A stretch of 64,000 nt of DNA from Actinomycetes bacterium. Lineage in GTDB: Bacteria; Actinomycetota; Acidimicrobiia; Acidimicrobiales; Bog-793. The stretch covers positions 1-64,000 of the forward strand of contig JAKBAA010000005.1 in assembly GCA_021809425.1 (NCBI GenBank), written 5' to 3'. The notes below the pieces were generated by a model. The model saw only the letters and a program-made list of their open reading frames with translations, was not told the origin of the DNA and ran no database searches. Below are positions 7,844 through 23,934 of the stretch, in pieces. The position numbers were made by a program, and so were the translations under genes. How positions within the stretch are numbered: the first letter of the stretch is position 1; every line of letters begins with the position of its first letter.

Positions 7844-8833
7844 ATGGGTGCGCTTCGCCTGAGCATCGCCACCACCGACTACGACCACTTCCGGGACTTC
7901 CGGCTCGGCGAGGTGCGCGCAGCCGGGATCGACCCCATCTGGTCGCTTCTCGGCCACCACGAGATCTTTGCCCGCTTCGCCGCCCACCGGGAGTGGGATG
8001 TGAGCGAGCTCTCCATCGCCAAGTTCTCCGCCGAGGTGACGCGACCGGACGCCGACATCGTCGGCCTCCCCGTGGTCTGCTCGCGCTTGTTCCGCTTCGG
8101 CTCGTTCTACGTGAACCGCAGGAGCGGGATCAAGGAGGCAGCCGACCTGCGCGGGCGGCGGGTCGGCTCACCCGAGTGGGCCCATTCCGCCGCCGTGTAC
8201 ATGCGCGGGTGGCTCGGCGACGAGGTCGGCGTCCGCCTCGACGAGGTCGACTGGTACCAGGCCGGGGCCAATGCCCCGGGACGGAGGGAGAAGGTCCAGA
8301 TCGAGCTGCCCGAGGGCGTCTCGCTCACGCGGGTCGCCGACCGCTCGCTCTCGGACATGCTCGCCTCGGGCGACCTCGACGCCGCCATCATCGCCCGCCC
8401 GCCCACCTGCTTCCTCGAGGGGCATCCGGACGTCGTCCGCCTCTTCCCGGACTTCCGAGCGCGCGAAGAGGACTACTACCGCCGCACCCGCGTCTGGCCC
8501 ATCATGCACATCGTGGCCCTCCGGCGCGACCTCGTCGAAGCGCACCCGTGGGTGCCGCGAAACCTGTACAACGCCTTCGCGGAGTCCAAGCGCCGCAGCC
8601 TCGAGCGCCTGCTCGACCCGGCCGTCTCTCGCTACCCGCTCGCCTGGCTGCCGGCATACGGCCAGCGGATGGCCCAGCTGTTCGAGGGCGACCCCTTCCC
8701 CTTCGGGCTCGAGGCCAACCTCCCGACCTTCTCCCTGCTGCTGCGCTATGCCCACGAGCAGGGCATCGCCCAGCGCCAGGCGACCCCCGCCGAGGTGTTC
8801 ACCGCCGGCATCGAGACGGCCGTCGTGATCTGA
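7844..8833 (+). CDS. 4,5-dihydroxyphthalate decarboxylase-like protein (Pht5-like, PBP-II fold), paralog 1
   Basis: WDVSELSIAKF, RRVGSPEWAHSAAVYMRGWL, FPDFRAREEDYYRRTRVWPIMHIV; no signal peptide. Confidence 0.78.
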   Translation: MGALRLSIATTDYDHFRDFRLGEVRAAGIDPIWSLLGHHEIFARFAAHREWDVSELSIAKFSAEVTRPDADIVGLPVVCSRLFRFGSFYVNRRSGIKEAADLRGRRVGSPEWAHSAAVYMRGWLGDEVGVRLDEVDWYQAGANAPGRREKVQIELPEGVSLTRVADRSLSDMLASGDLDAAIIARPPTCFLEGHPDVVRLFPDFRAREEDYYRRTRVWPIMHIVALRRDLVEAHPWVPRNLYNAFAESKRRSLERLLDPAVSRYPLAWLPAYGQRMAQLFEGDPFPFGLEANLPTFSLLLRYAHEQGIAQRQATPAEVFTAGIETAVVI

Positions 8834-18129: not shown

Positions 18130-18861
18130 TCAGGCATGGAGCCAAGTCTCCGGCAGGACGCCCGCGTGGGCCGCCACCGTTGCGTAGTACTTCCAGACCT
18201 TCTCGACATGACGCTCGCGTCGGAACGTCGAGAGGAACGAGGCAATCTCCTCGTCGCTGAGGCGATCGACCTGCCCGAGCAGCAGACCCTGCGACAGCGC
18301 CTCGGCGTTCTCGACGAGGTGCAGGGCGTCCACGAAGACGGCGCGGGGGCTCTCGGCGAGCACGACCTCGCCGTGCGCCCGCAGCAGGGTGGCGTGGCAG
18401 TCACCCGTCGTTGCGGCAAGCGCCGCTCCCTTGGCGGGGCTGTCGATGTGCGAGACGTCGCGGTGCACGGGGATGCCCCCGGACCAGCGACTCGCGTGGT
18501 TCTTGACGGGCACGAGCTCCAGGCCTTCGACCATGCTGAACAGCGTCGTCCTGTCGTGGTGGAAGTGGGCGACCGATCCCACATCGGGGCGAGCCCGGTA
18601 GATCTCGGTGTGGATGAACACCTCCGACGGGGGCTTGCCTTCGCCCTTCGTGACCGACCCGTCCAGGTCGACCACGAGGAGGCGCTCGGGCGCGAGCTCG
18701 GCGCGCACGTCGTCGACCGGTTGGATGACGATCTCGCGCTCCCCGACGCGGGCGCTCACGTGCCCGCTGTAGCCGAGGATCCCGGCCTCGACCAGCAGTC
18801 GAGTGCACATTGCGACGTCCACACAGACCGCTTCGAGCTCCATGACCTCTCCCCCAAGCAT
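18130..18861 (-). CDS. Class II aldolase/adducin family protein (paralog 2)
   Basis: GYSGHVSARVGEREIVIQP, SVAHFHHDRTTLFSMV, LRAHGEVVLAE. Confidence 0.83.
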   Translation of the reverse strand: MLGGEVMELEAVCVDVAMCTRLLVEAGILGYSGHVSARVGEREIVIQPVDDVRAELAPERLLVVDLDGSVTKGEGKPPSEVFIHTEIYRARPDVGSVAHFHHDRTTLFSMVEGLELVPVKNHASRWSGGIPVHRDVSHIDSPAKGAALAATTGDCHATLLRAHGEVVLAESPRAVFVDALHLVENAEALSQGLLLGQVDRLSDEEIASFLSTFRRERHVEKVWKYYATVAAHAGVLPETWLHA

Positions 18862-18969: not shown

Positions 18970-20085
18970 TCAGCGGCCGTGCCCTGCTGGCTCCATCTGG
19001 CAGTCGACCCCGCGATGGTCGAGCTCTTCCAGGTAGATGGCCCGAATGCGCGGGTCCTCGTCCTCGTAGTCGATCTGGCGGCCTCCGTCCTCGAGCGACT
19101 TGTCCACACCCAGGAAGTGCCGCCTCCGCTCGTCGGTCAGTGGATAGCGAAGGCCGCCATAGGCGACAGCGAGGTAGCGGACCGGCGACTCGGAGGTGTT
19201 GAAGTGCTGGTGGAACATCTGGTCGGGTGGCGCGTAGACGACACCGTGGCGCCAGTCGATCCGCCGGAACTCCTCGTCGCCCTCGTACCACAACAGGCTG
19301 TAGCCGTGCCCGTCCACGGTGAACACGTGAAAGTCCGGACCGTGCCGGTGCCCCTTCTTGTAGGTCCCCACGGGCATCTCCGACACGTGGGCGTGCATCG
19401 TCGAGTCGGCGAGCACGAACTTGAGGTTCCGGCTCCCGGCGCCCCTCGCTGCCCAGGCCGGCAGCTCGAACTGGCGGAGGTCGGGGACGAAGTTGGTCTC
19501 CCACATGTGCCGACCCGGCGCCACGCCGACGAAGTCGCCCTCACCGGCGAACCGGCCGTCCCTCCCGAACCGCTCCTCGAAGGACCACGGGTTCTCGAAG
19601 ATGAAGCGCTCCTGACGAAACACCTTCATCACGAGCGGCAGGCTCGTCACCGAGGCGAAGCGCGCCGGTGCCGACCCGCTGGCATTGAAGTGGCGGTAGC
19701 GAGCGTTGAGCGGGAGGCCGAAGAGGCTGCGGGGCCCCCACTCGAAGCTATGGGCCCGGCCGTCGGCACGCTCGACCGTCGTCGTGCCGTGCCCGGAGAG
19801 GACGTAGACGACCTCTTCGTAGAGGTGCTGCTGCAGGATGGTCGAGCCGCCGGGCGGCAGCTCGGCCACCACCACGTTCACGTTGTCACCGCGACCGAGC
19901 AGGTGGACGACCGCGGCCGGCACGCCGAGGCGGGCCCATGGCGCCACCTCGACCTCGAGCAGGTCGACCCCGAAGTCCTCGACGATCGGGATCCCTTCGT
20001 TCCGGACCCATCGGTCGTACGGGTCGACCAGCAGCTTTCCCTCGGTCGCCGCTGCGGCGATGAGCTCGTCGACGTTCTCGCTCAA
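18970..20085 (-). CDS. Bicupin protein (type found next to EutA-like genes)
   Basis: Two cupin motifs: LPPGGSTILQQHLYEEVVYVLSGHG and KKGHRHGPDFHVFTVDGHG...PPDQMFHQHFNT; likely TTG start next to eutA-like stop. Confidence 0.8.
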   Translation of the reverse strand: MSENVDELIAAAATEGKLLVDPYDRWVRNEGIPIVEDFGVDLLEVEVAPWARLGVPAAVVHLLGRGDNVNVVVAELPPGGSTILQQHLYEEVVYVLSGHGTTTVERADGRAHSFEWGPRSLFGLPLNARYRHFNASGSAPARFASVTSLPLVMKVFRQERFIFENPWSFEERFGRDGRFAGEGDFVGVAPGRHMWETNFVPDLRQFELPAWAARGAGSRNLKFVLADSTMHAHVSEMPVGTYKKGHRHGPDFHVFTVDGHGYSLLWYEGDEEFRRIDWRHGVVYAPPDQMFHQHFNTSESPVRYLAVAYGGLRYPLTDERRRHFLGVDKSLEDGGRQIDYEDEDPRIRAIYLEELDHRGVDCQMEPAGHGR

Positions 20086-20086
20086 C

Positions 20087-21724
20087 TCACACCCCCGGGC
20101 TCTCGTCGCCCCATCGTGGCATCCCTGACCTTTCCGGCGTCGGCTCGGCCACGAGACGGCTCGGCGGCGCGAACAGCAGCGACTTGACGACGACCGGCAC
20201 GACCCCACTCGGCCGGCGCGGTGGCGCCAGGTCGACGAAGTCCATGCCGCCCAGCTCGAGGCCGTCGAGCGCCACGACCACTGGCGAGACGAGCCCGATC
20301 TCCTCGGCCATGATGCGGCCGAGGGAGGCGCCGAGGTCGCGATCGACCACGAGCACGGCGAGCTCGACGCCGTCGCCGCCCGAGGTGCGCACCGCGTCGG
20401 CGACCCCGGCGCCCAGCGCGAGCAGGCGCTCGTGGGACGGGTCGCCCTCCCACGAGAAGGCCAGGGCGACCGCCCGCGCCGCCTCGATGGCCTCCCGACG
20501 GGTCGCCATCGCCCGACGAGCCGCCTCGGCGATCGCCCTGCGCTCCGGGTGCTCGAGGTCGATCGCCGGCCGCACCACCGGGACACCGTGCGCCGGAAGG
20601 ACCGCCTCGTCCCCGACGAGCACCGTGCTCCCGCTCACCTGGGTCGAGAACTGTGCGACGCCGATCACCGTTGCCCGGATGCCCTCGCCTGCGGGCAGCA
20701 GGGCCGGCGAGGAGGCCTCGGCGGCGAGGCGCCATCGGATCGCCTCGGCGAGCGATCGGCCGAGGTCGCCGAAGTCTCCCTGCTCACGCCCGGAGAGGAA
20801 CTCTGCGACCCCTCCCGAGAAGCTCACCGCGGCCACCGGAGACCACCGGATCGCCTCGGTGAGCCAGAGCGCCCTCGCCAGCGGGTCGTCCCGCCCGAGG
20901 ATCGTCGCCACCAGGACCTCCGCCATGCGGGCCGCGAGGACCTCCTCCAGCTGCGGCGAAAGCCGCGAGCCGACCTCGAGGTCGGCGCCGACGGCGGCAG
21001 CGATGGCACGACCGTTCCCCTCCAGGCGGACGATCCGGCGCCCCTCGCCCCAAGCCATGAGACGGCTCCCGAGACCGAGCGCCCCGGTGGAGACGACCGC
21101 CCCTGCCTCGCAGCGTGCCAGCTTGGTCGTGCTCCCTCCGACGTCGACCGCCAGGACCGCCGCACCGGTCGCCCTCGAGCGACCCACCGCGCCCGACCCG
21201 TGCGCGGCAAGCTCGGCCTCGAGATGGTGGCCGGCAGCGGCACACACGAAGCGGCCGGCGTCGCGGGCGATGGCATTGGCCACGGCCTGCGCATTGCTCC
21301 GCTCGAGGGCCGCTCCGGTGAGGAGCACCGCACCCGTGTCGACCTCCTCGAAGCCCAGGCCCGAGGCTCGCTCCGACGCCGCGAGAAAGTCCGCGAGGCG
21401 CGCGGCGTCGATCAGCCCGCCGTCGTCGGCGTACGGTGTGAGCAGGACGGGCGAGCGCCACAGCTCCTCGCGCCCGGTCATCACGTATCGGCTCGAGAGC
21501 GCCGTGGCCAACCGCTCGAGGCGGACCTTGGAATGGGAGAGGTGCGTGGTGGAGGAGCCGACGTCGATCCCCACCGTGCGGAGCTCGAACGCCTCGACGC
21601 CCTCGAGCAGTTGCCACGTGGAGCTCACCGCAGCGCGTGTGCGACGGGGCGAGGGCCGCCGGCCCGGGCCGACGGACACGTGCGGCTGCACCAGCACGCC
21701 AGCCCCCTTGACCGCCCCATGCAT
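20087..21724 (-). CDS. EutA-like ethanolamine ammonia-lyase reactivase family protein (ASKHA ATPase)
   Basis: TVGIDVGSSTTHLSHSKVRLE, GAVLLTGAALERSNAQAVANAIA, VLAVDVGGSTTKLARCE, AAVSFSGGVAEF; ATG at 21724 (alternative 21751). Confidence 0.8.
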   Translation of the reverse strand: MHGAVKGAGVLVQPHVSVGPGRRPSPRRTRAAVSSTWQLLEGVEAFELRTVGIDVGSSTTHLSHSKVRLERLATALSSRYVMTGREELWRSPVLLTPYADDGGLIDAARLADFLAASERASGLGFEEVDTGAVLLTGAALERSNAQAVANAIARDAGRFVCAAAGHHLEAELAAHGSGAVGRSRATGAAVLAVDVGGSTTKLARCEAGAVVSTGALGLGSRLMAWGEGRRIVRLEGNGRAIAAAVGADLEVGSRLSPQLEEVLAARMAEVLVATILGRDDPLARALWLTEAIRWSPVAAVSFSGGVAEFLSGREQGDFGDLGRSLAEAIRWRLAAEASSPALLPAGEGIRATVIGVAQFSTQVSGSTVLVGDEAVLPAHGVPVVRPAIDLEHPERRAIAEAARRAMATRREAIEAARAVALAFSWEGDPSHERLLALGAGVADAVRTSGGDGVELAVLVVDRDLGASLGRIMAEEIGLVSPVVVALDGLELGGMDFVDLAPPRRPSGVVPVVVKSLLFAPPSRLVAEPTPERSGMPRWGDESPGV

Positions 21725-21885: not shown

Positions 21886-22689
21886 ATGACGGATCACCCA
21901 CGGAGGACGAGCAAGGGCGCCAGCGCCAACGAGCGGCGGCCCAACTACCCGATCGAGTCGGTCGACAACGTCCTGCGACTTCTCCTCCTGATCGAGGCAC
22001 ACGGTGAGATCCGGGTCTCCGAGGCGAGCGCCAAGCTCGGCATCGCCGTCTCGACGGCACACCGGCTTCTCGCGATGCTGCTCCACCACGACTTCGTGAA
22101 GCAGGATCCGGTCTCGAAGGTGTATGCCCCGGGGCCGGTGCTCGTCCGGCTCGGCCTCGGCGCCATCCGCGAGATGGACATCCGGGTCATCGCCCGGCCC
22201 TACCTCGTGAAGCTGCGTGACGAGGTCGGGGAGACCGTCCACCTCGCGTTGCCGAAGGGACCGGAGATCCTCTTCGTCGACTCCATCGAGAGCAACAAGG
22301 CCCTGCGCGTCTCCGGCCGGATCGGCGCGTCCATGTGGGCCCACTGCACCTCGGTCGGCAAGGCCTATCTCGCCGAGGAGAGCGACGAGCGGCTCCTCGA
22401 GCTCTACCCCTCCATCGAGCTTGCCTCGATCACGTCCGCCTCCATCACGTCCAGGTCCCGCCTGTTCGCCGAGCTTCAGGAGGTGCGTGAGCGAGGCTAT
22501 GCGGAGAACGCGAACGAGAGCGAGGAGGGCGTCGGCTCCGTAGGGGTCGCGATCCACGACCGCCAGGGTCGAGCGGTCGCCTCGATCTCGGTGTCCCTCC
22601 CCCTTTCGCGCCTCACGCCCACGATCCGCGCAGAGGTCGTGCAGGCGGCCCTTGGCGCGGCCCACGACATCGAGGACGCGCTGCCCTGA
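21886..22689 (+). CDS. IclR-family transcriptional regulator
   Basis: N-terminal wHTH VDNVLRLLLLIEAHGEIRVSEASAKLGIAVSTAHRLLAML and IclR effector domain. Confidence 0.93.
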   Translation: MTDHPRRTSKGASANERRPNYPIESVDNVLRLLLLIEAHGEIRVSEASAKLGIAVSTAHRLLAMLLHHDFVKQDPVSKVYAPGPVLVRLGLGAIREMDIRVIARPYLVKLRDEVGETVHLALPKGPEILFVDSIESNKALRVSGRIGASMWAHCTSVGKAYLAEESDERLLELYPSIELASITSASITSRSRLFAELQEVRERGYAENANESEEGVGSVGVAIHDRQGRAVASISVSLPLSRLTPTIRAEVVQAALGAAHDIEDALP

Positions 22690-22785: not shown

Positions 22786-23769
22786 TCAGACTCTGAAGCT
22801 CGCCAGCACCTGGCGGGGAAAGAGCTCCTCGGGGGTCAACAACGTGCGGGCGACCCCCTGCTCGTGGGCGAAGCGCAGGAACGCCTCGATCGTGGTGCGG
22901 TTGGGCTCGAGGCCGTACGGCCACAATGGGCCCCCGAGCTGCGCCGTCAGCTCGCGGATGCGCTCGGGGATCCACGGGATGGGCAGCCGGCTCGCCGTCA
23001 TGTCGGCGAGGCGAGCCTCGCTGCGGCGCTTTGCCTCCTCGAAGGCGGACAAGAGGTTCATCGCGACCCACGGATGCTCCTCGAGCAGCCGGGCGCGAAG
23101 GACCACGACGTGCATGATCGGGAAGATGCCCGTCCTGCGCACGTACGCTTCCTCCACCGGCTGGTGGTCGGGAAAGAGCCGGACGATCCCCGGGTCGCCT
23201 TCCTCGAAGCTGCGTGGGGGGTGCGCCGAGAAGACCGCGTCCAGGTCGCCGGCGTGGAGCATCTCGTCGAGCGTCCGGTCCTTCACCGGCGTGAGCCGGA
23301 CACCGTCCGGCAGGCTCAGCTCGACCTTCTCGGTCCGACCCGCCTGGTTGACGCCAGCCTGGAACCATTCCACGTCGGACAGCGCAACGCCCCACTCGTG
23401 CATGAGGAGCGACCTGCTGTAGACGGCGGCGGTCTGGCACCACTCGGGCACGCCGATGCGCGCGCCGGCGAGCTCGTCCGGTGTCCGCGGCCCCGTCGGC
23501 GTGACGTAGATCGACGAGTGGCGGCACACCCGCGACGGGAACACGGGCAGGGCCACGACCGACTCGTCGCCCGCCGCGCGCAGGGCGACGTACTTCGCGA
23601 AGGACAGCTCGGAGACGTCCCACTCCCGGTAGTTGATGAAGCGGAAGAAGATCTCCTCGACCGGCAACGAGAGAAAGGAGAGCGCCATGCCCTCGGCCCG
23701 GACTCTCTCCTCGACCAGGTCGCGGGTGTGCTCGTAGTCGCTCATGGCGACGGTGAGCCGGACGGTCAC
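22786..23769 (-). CDS. 4,5-dihydroxyphthalate decarboxylase-like protein, paralog 2
   Basis: WDVSELSFAKYVAL, ARIGVPEWCQTAAVYSRSLL, FPDHQPVEEAYVRRTGIFPIMHVVVLR; colinear with 7844..8833; GTG start inferred. Confidence 0.8.
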   Translation of the reverse strand: MTVRLTVAMSDYEHTRDLVEERVRAEGMALSFLSLPVEEIFFRFINYREWDVSELSFAKYVALRAAGDESVVALPVFPSRVCRHSSIYVTPTGPRTPDELAGARIGVPEWCQTAAVYSRSLLMHEWGVALSDVEWFQAGVNQAGRTEKVELSLPDGVRLTPVKDRTLDEMLHAGDLDAVFSAHPPRSFEEGDPGIVRLFPDHQPVEEAYVRRTGIFPIMHVVVLRARLLEEHPWVAMNLLSAFEEAKRRSEARLADMTASRLPIPWIPERIRELTAQLGGPLWPYGLEPNRTTIEAFLRFAHEQGVARTLLTPEELFPRQVLASFRV

Positions 23770-23934
23770 CCTCGGAGCCTTCCGGTCATCAGGACCTCCC
23801 GTCCGTTCGGCCGCCCTCGTCACGCTGCCCCTGCGTCGAAGGAGCTCCGAAGGGAGGACACCTTCTGCGGCGGCCCACCGCCACCTCGCGCGCCCCCCGC
23901 CCGGGACCCACGACCCACAGGATCCGGGGCTTTT

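Follow-up and report, generated by a model that had tools for sequence, protein, structure and literature searches.

An orphan EutA-like ATPase gene and a bicupin gene form a conserved and widespread two-gene module

Introduction

EutA uses ATP to swap out the damaged cofactor of the B12-dependent ethanolamine ammonia-lyase. The protein family considered here shares with EutA (PF06277) homology over the full length, the ASKHA fold and 57 signature positions, but it occurs without EutB, forms a separate clade, carries residues of its own (Lys157/Arg27/Gln318 and Cys117/His122), has a bicupin as partner and in many members bears a His-rich tail. The bicupin in turn has the two-cupin architecture of the gentisate, salicylate and 5-aminosalicylate 1,2-dioxygenases, with a candidate 3-His-type site in its C-terminal domain, and is weakly similar to the MabB and gentisate profile models (MabB, the best NCBIfam match of the copy studied here, reaches only 19.9 bits where the cut-off is 650). 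Unlike these cupin ring-cleaving dioxygenases, it has lost the HxH motif of the N-terminal cupin domain and comes with a dedicated ATPase. The best Foldseek matches to its AF2 model are bicupins of the oxalate decarboxylase type, although the identity is 12-18%, the TM-scores are only ~0.46 and the metal-ligand pattern differs. Dedicated maintenance factors are known for ring-cleaving dioxygenases, which are re-reduced by XylT-type ferredoxins, redox proteins and not ATPases. With the nickel metallochaperones UreE and HypB the EutA-like family has in common a His-rich segment and, in part of the family, nickel/cobalt transporter neighbours. However, HypB is a G3E GTPase and UreE a non-NTPase, whereas the EutA-like protein is an actin-like ATPase, and its His-rich segment is a tail at the N-terminus of a EutA homologue, which the copy studied here lacks.

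The locus

All coordinates refer to the window, i.e. the whole stretch of 64,000 nucleotides analysed, which belongs to a 3.55-Mb genome (179 contigs, 93% complete). The relevant features are:

18130..18861, minus strand: class II aldolase gene (PF00596, 107 bits), downstream of the bicupin gene; context, not an invariant partner
18970..20085, minus strand: bicupin gene with a TTG start (PF07883, Cupin_2, match), the proposed client
19204..19350, minus strand: putative metal site of the C-terminal cupin, four His invariant in 26 homologues
19348-19350, 19342-19344, 19210-19212 and 19204-19206, minus strand: His246, His248, His292 and His294, respectively, the putative ligands
20087..21724, minus strand: EutA-like ASKHA ATPase gene of an orphan family, in-frame ATG at 21724-21722, an alternative GTG start further in being possible
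21122..21124, minus strand: codon of Lys157 in the phosphate-2 loop, K in 103/103 EutA-like proteins and N in 9/9 EutAs
21227..21244, minus strand: Cys117 and His122 in the motif FVCAAAGH, C in 92/103 and H in 86/103 EutA-like proteins
21886..22689, plus strand: IclR-family regulator gene (PF01614 and PF09339), divergent from the EutA-like gene

The possible TTG start of the bicupin lies 1 nt past the stop codon of the EutA-like gene, and the divergent IclR-family gene probably encodes the regulator of this operon. These features agree with the original prediction, which had described an adjoining TTG-started bicupin, a class II aldolase and a divergent IclR regulator.

Relation to EutA

The same prediction had credited the 20087-21724 product with a EutA pattern and with two nucleotide-binding motifs, VGIDVGSSTTHL and VDVGGSTTKLA. 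Both motifs are present, and the pattern is borne out by a PF06277 match of 295 bits (cut-off 27) spanning profile positions 2-474 of 475. The AF2 model (pLDDT 85.7) adopts an ASKHA fold and retrieves the actin-like ATPases PPX/GppA, PilM, HgdC and MreB with Foldseek, which together with the phosphate-1 and phosphate-2 loop motifs in the sequence places the protein in the ASKHA superfamily. It nevertheless falls below all of the NCBIfam EutA equivalog cut-offs (239.6 versus 598 bits, and 191, 173 and 146 versus 769, 952 and 799). Among sequences in the PDB, phmmer found no relatives of either the EutA-like protein or the bicupin, and profile searches returned generic ASKHA and cupin matches only.

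Full-length EutA matches in 298 Actinomycetota genomes are bimodal. Five matches exceed 500 bits, each with eutB immediately adjacent, while six genes in five genomes score 295-399 bits and occur without eutB. The two kinds are also separated in a tree of 57 sequences, where a branch with SH-aLRT 100 divides nine EutAs (eight seen beside eutB, the ninth, from Acetoanaerobium, taken from an unannotated record) from 48 EutA-like proteins. Besides Lys157, the EutA-like proteins are distinguished by Arg27 (103/103) and Gln318 (102/103), both found in 0/9 EutAs, and at the sites of Cys117 and His122 all nine EutAs have V or I, and P or A, respectively. The copy in the window carries all five of these residues.

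EutB (PF06751) is absent from the genome to which the window belongs, in agreement with the predicted orphan status, as well as from the four further Actinomycetota and the 15 Chloroflexota genomes that encode a EutA-like protein. An ethanolamine ammonia-lyase encoded elsewhere in this 93% complete genome was rejected as the client on this ground. Neither of the outcomes that would speak against the prediction, eutBC elsewhere as consistent partner or a placement in another known ASKHA family, appeared. Of the reactivase reading, the homology to EutA stands over the full length, while the protein lies in a clade outside true EutA and may, by analogy, have a reactivase role. These results indicate that the label ‘ethanolamine ammonia-lyase reactivating factor’, which the family carries where it is annotated, is wrong.

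Association with the bicupin

The EutA-like gene and the bicupin gene make up a real, conserved and widespread two-gene module that has no name; a literature search found no papers describing EutA with cupins or this pair. All six orphan EutA-like genes in Actinomycetota have a bicupin directly beside them, and a full-length bicupin occurs in exactly the same five of the 298 genomes (Fisher p 5e-11), the weakest true match to the bicupin profile scoring 532 bits and the next best 83. In 201 Chloroflexota genomes, 15 have a EutA-like protein (17 profile matches minus two EutAs directly beside eutB), and the 14 genomes with a bicupin are all among them (p 1e-20), leaving one with the EutA-like protein and without the bicupin. 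The pairing extends to plasmids, as the four PLSDB records with a EutA-like match (at least 80% of the length, ~41% identity) are the same four that have a bicupin. A Pseudomonadota-wide sample was uninformative, the query genome alone having a bicupin.

Across many phyla, 52/80 loci have the bicupin no more than 500 nt away from the EutA-like gene, and eight more have it elsewhere in the locus. These counts (60/80 in all) were obtained by profile search on stop-to-stop open reading frames, as a simple gene caller gave frames antisense to the bicupin; several of the 20 loci with none end at a contig border. Thirteen genomes without a bicupin near the EutA-like locus were searched whole, and 12 hold strong bicupins elsewhere. 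The thirteenth (L047, NHFY01000040.1, labelled Flavobacteriales) has a EutA-like gene and no real bicupin, and is set aside as probably a mis-binned contig because the locus is very similar to loci L044, L048 and L083 from Rhodospirillaceae.

No other neighbour approaches this frequency. When the genes of 87 loci were clustered, bicupins were found in at least 53, compared with Pht5-like genes in 26, Rieske oxygenases in 18, class II aldolases and IclR regulators in 15 each and UbiD in seven. UbiD, the aldolase, the Rieske and the Pht5-like proteins, all far less frequent than the bicupin in the same clustering, are consequently rejected as client. Of the genes proposed for a co-occurrence check, only the bicupin proves a consistent partner; UbiD and the Pht5-like genes do not, and neither does the aldolase. 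The suggestion that the EutA-like protein serves a different client likewise holds in part: the consistent partner is the adjacent bicupin, probably a metal-dependent protein, and not a prFMN or radical enzyme, since UbiD and Pht5-like genes are merely occasional neighbours.

That the two genes simply co-travel in catabolic clusters, without functional interaction of their products, would fit their occurrence in variable surroundings with TctABC or ABC transporters, IclR, aldolase and Rieske genes. Yet it is precisely these neighbours that change from locus to locus, whereas the pair is retained in many phyla, and all bicupin-bearing genomes in Chloroflexota (14/14) and Actinomycetota (5/5) also have the EutA-like gene, which makes such an artefact barely credible. 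The pairing itself is well supported.

The bicupin and its candidate metal site

The bicupin family is annotated as ‘hypothetical protein’ wherever annotation was seen. The AF2 model of the window copy (pLDDT 87.3) matches oxalate decarboxylase, gentisate dioxygenase and quercetinase in Foldseek. Taken with the four invariant histidines, this predicted fold suggests that the likely enzyme of the module is a metalloprotein of the 3-His cupin-dioxygenase type, which probably acts in the breakdown of aromatic acids or other organic acids.

In the twelve genomes with bicupins away from the EutA-like locus, 5-39 bicupin matches are accompanied by 1-5 EutA-like matches per genome (fragments counted), and in many of them 7-39 by 3-5. 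This excess of bicupins is more readily understood if the EutA-like protein is a maintenance factor shared by several clients than if it is a fixed subunit. This bears on the possibility that the pair is one enzyme, in which the ASKHA protein would phosphorylate or activate the substrate, like the ASKHA subunits of 5-oxoprolinase or acetone carboxylase, and the bicupin would carry out the second half-reaction. Genes 1 nt apart, strict co-occurrence and an intact nucleotide site with the family-specific Lys157 are all in keeping with such an enzyme. We nonetheless hold it to be unlikely, as several genomes have far more bicupins than EutA-like genes, unlike what fixed subunits display, the full-length similarity of the EutA-like protein is to EutA, and the His-rich tails and transporter neighbours described below are left unexplained.

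The bicupin family has grown to 15-39 copies in six genomes (G301-G306) from SAR202, Dehalococcoidia and some proteobacteria, and in one SAR202 genome (G302) seven bicupins stand in tandem (G302:C1:93773-102494). A SAR202-VII-2 genome has been described with 25 ring-cleaving dioxygenases and no complete reference pathway (PMC6123686); these are not equated here with the bicupins.

Indications of a metal

An N-terminal His/Asp-rich tail (e.g. DHDHDHDDF or MHDxxFDHEH) with at least three His is present in 69/98 EutA-like proteins, the His content being 8.2% in the tail and 3.1% in the body, while ~30% of the tails are not His-rich; EutAs with clear starts have no such tail. NicO-type nickel/cobalt transporter genes occur in 14/80 loci, 13 of them within 2.3 kb of the EutA-like gene, where the NicO density in 31 genomes gives a chance expectation of 0.39; kinship among the loci limits their independence (the tree has 8 label changes), and both the tail and the NicO signal come from the same loci that prompted the idea of a metal. 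Six of these 13 genes lie directly downstream of the EutA-like gene at 4-120 nt and two more have overlapping open frames. Five NicO proteins were tested and all exceed the Pfam NicO cut-off, one by only 5 bits. The window copy has neither a His-rich tail nor a NicO gene nearby, and its genome holds one NicO elsewhere.

At three loci (L124:14505-15146, L067 and L070) a YjbE-family putative metal transport gene lies downstream of the EutA-like gene in Phyllobacterium, additional to the NicO genes elsewhere.

As NicO-family proteins can carry cobalt, which they might supply for B12, and as EutA homology extends over the full length, the EutA-like protein could be a true B12-dependent reactivase of an unrecognised B12 enzyme. 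This we judge highly improbable given that eutB is found in 0/5 Actinomycetota and 0/15 Chloroflexota genomes with the EutA-like protein, that the recurrent partner is a cupin and that no B12 enzyme is among the recurrent neighbours identified. A metal-independent chaperone or assembly factor, acting on the folding or oligomerisation of the bicupin with the tail as a minor or metal-storing element, would account equally well for the co-occurrence and for the stoichiometry of a shared helper, and the window copy and ~30% of the family without a His-rich tail speak in its favour. Cys117/His122 and the linkage to NicO instead point to a metal, and we consider a purely chaperoning role rather doubtful.

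Proposed function

The reading we prefer, although it stands evenly poised between right and wrong, is that the EutA-like protein is a dedicated actin-like ATPase that loads or repairs the metal of the bicupin, an enzyme of aromatic or organic acid catabolism. As EutA does for its own client, the EutA-like ATPase would bind the bicupin and spend ATP on opening or remodelling it, so that a metal, perhaps nickel or cobalt and possibly iron, could be loaded at the His site, or an inactive one replaced there. In most members the metal may be carried by the His/Asp-rich tail together with the Cys117/His122 pair, and in the window copy by the Cys/His pair only. The analysis shows the pairing, the lack of eutB, the separate clade, the fold and the diagnostic residues; from these we infer the direct interaction, the use of ATP, the metal and the reaction of the bicupin.

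A more far-reaching proposal, which we put forward tentatively and think more likely to fail than to hold, is that these proteins constitute a new class of ATP-driven factors that load or reactivate metal centres, in which a EutA-related ASKHA ATPase, with nickel or cobalt on its His-rich tail and Cys/His pair, services a large family of cupin oxygenases that SAR202 and other environmental bacteria carry by the dozen. If the inferred mechanism is right, the reactivase fold of B12 enzymes has found a second use with a cupin metalloenzyme. The proposed enzyme family, with up to 39 bicupin copies per genome, may account for a sizeable share of the degradation of aromatic and organic acids by bacteria of oceans and soils. 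The module offers a direct experimental route to this unnamed enzyme family.

Other neighbouring genes

Next to the IclR-family gene in the window, positions 22786-23823 (minus strand) encode a Pht5-like, solute-binding-like protein without a match in Pfam or NCBIfam, a member of the cluster seen in 26/87 loci, and a second, similar-looking open reading frame lies at 7844-8833 (plus strand). Rieske oxygenases recur near EutA-like genes (L065, with a LigXa-like C-terminal domain, L088, L084, L116 and others), which suggests that aromatic acids are demethylated or hydroxylated in the same pathways. Finally, two tandem single-cupin genes encoding ~200 aa recur in part of the EutA-like loci, at L071:15492-16814, L098:6475-7761 and L099:3270-4530, and also in L085, L095, L103, L105, L106 and L123; such pairs often stand beside a bicupin, and their products bear a weak resemblance to 5-aminosalicylate dioxygenase and mandelonitrile lyase.
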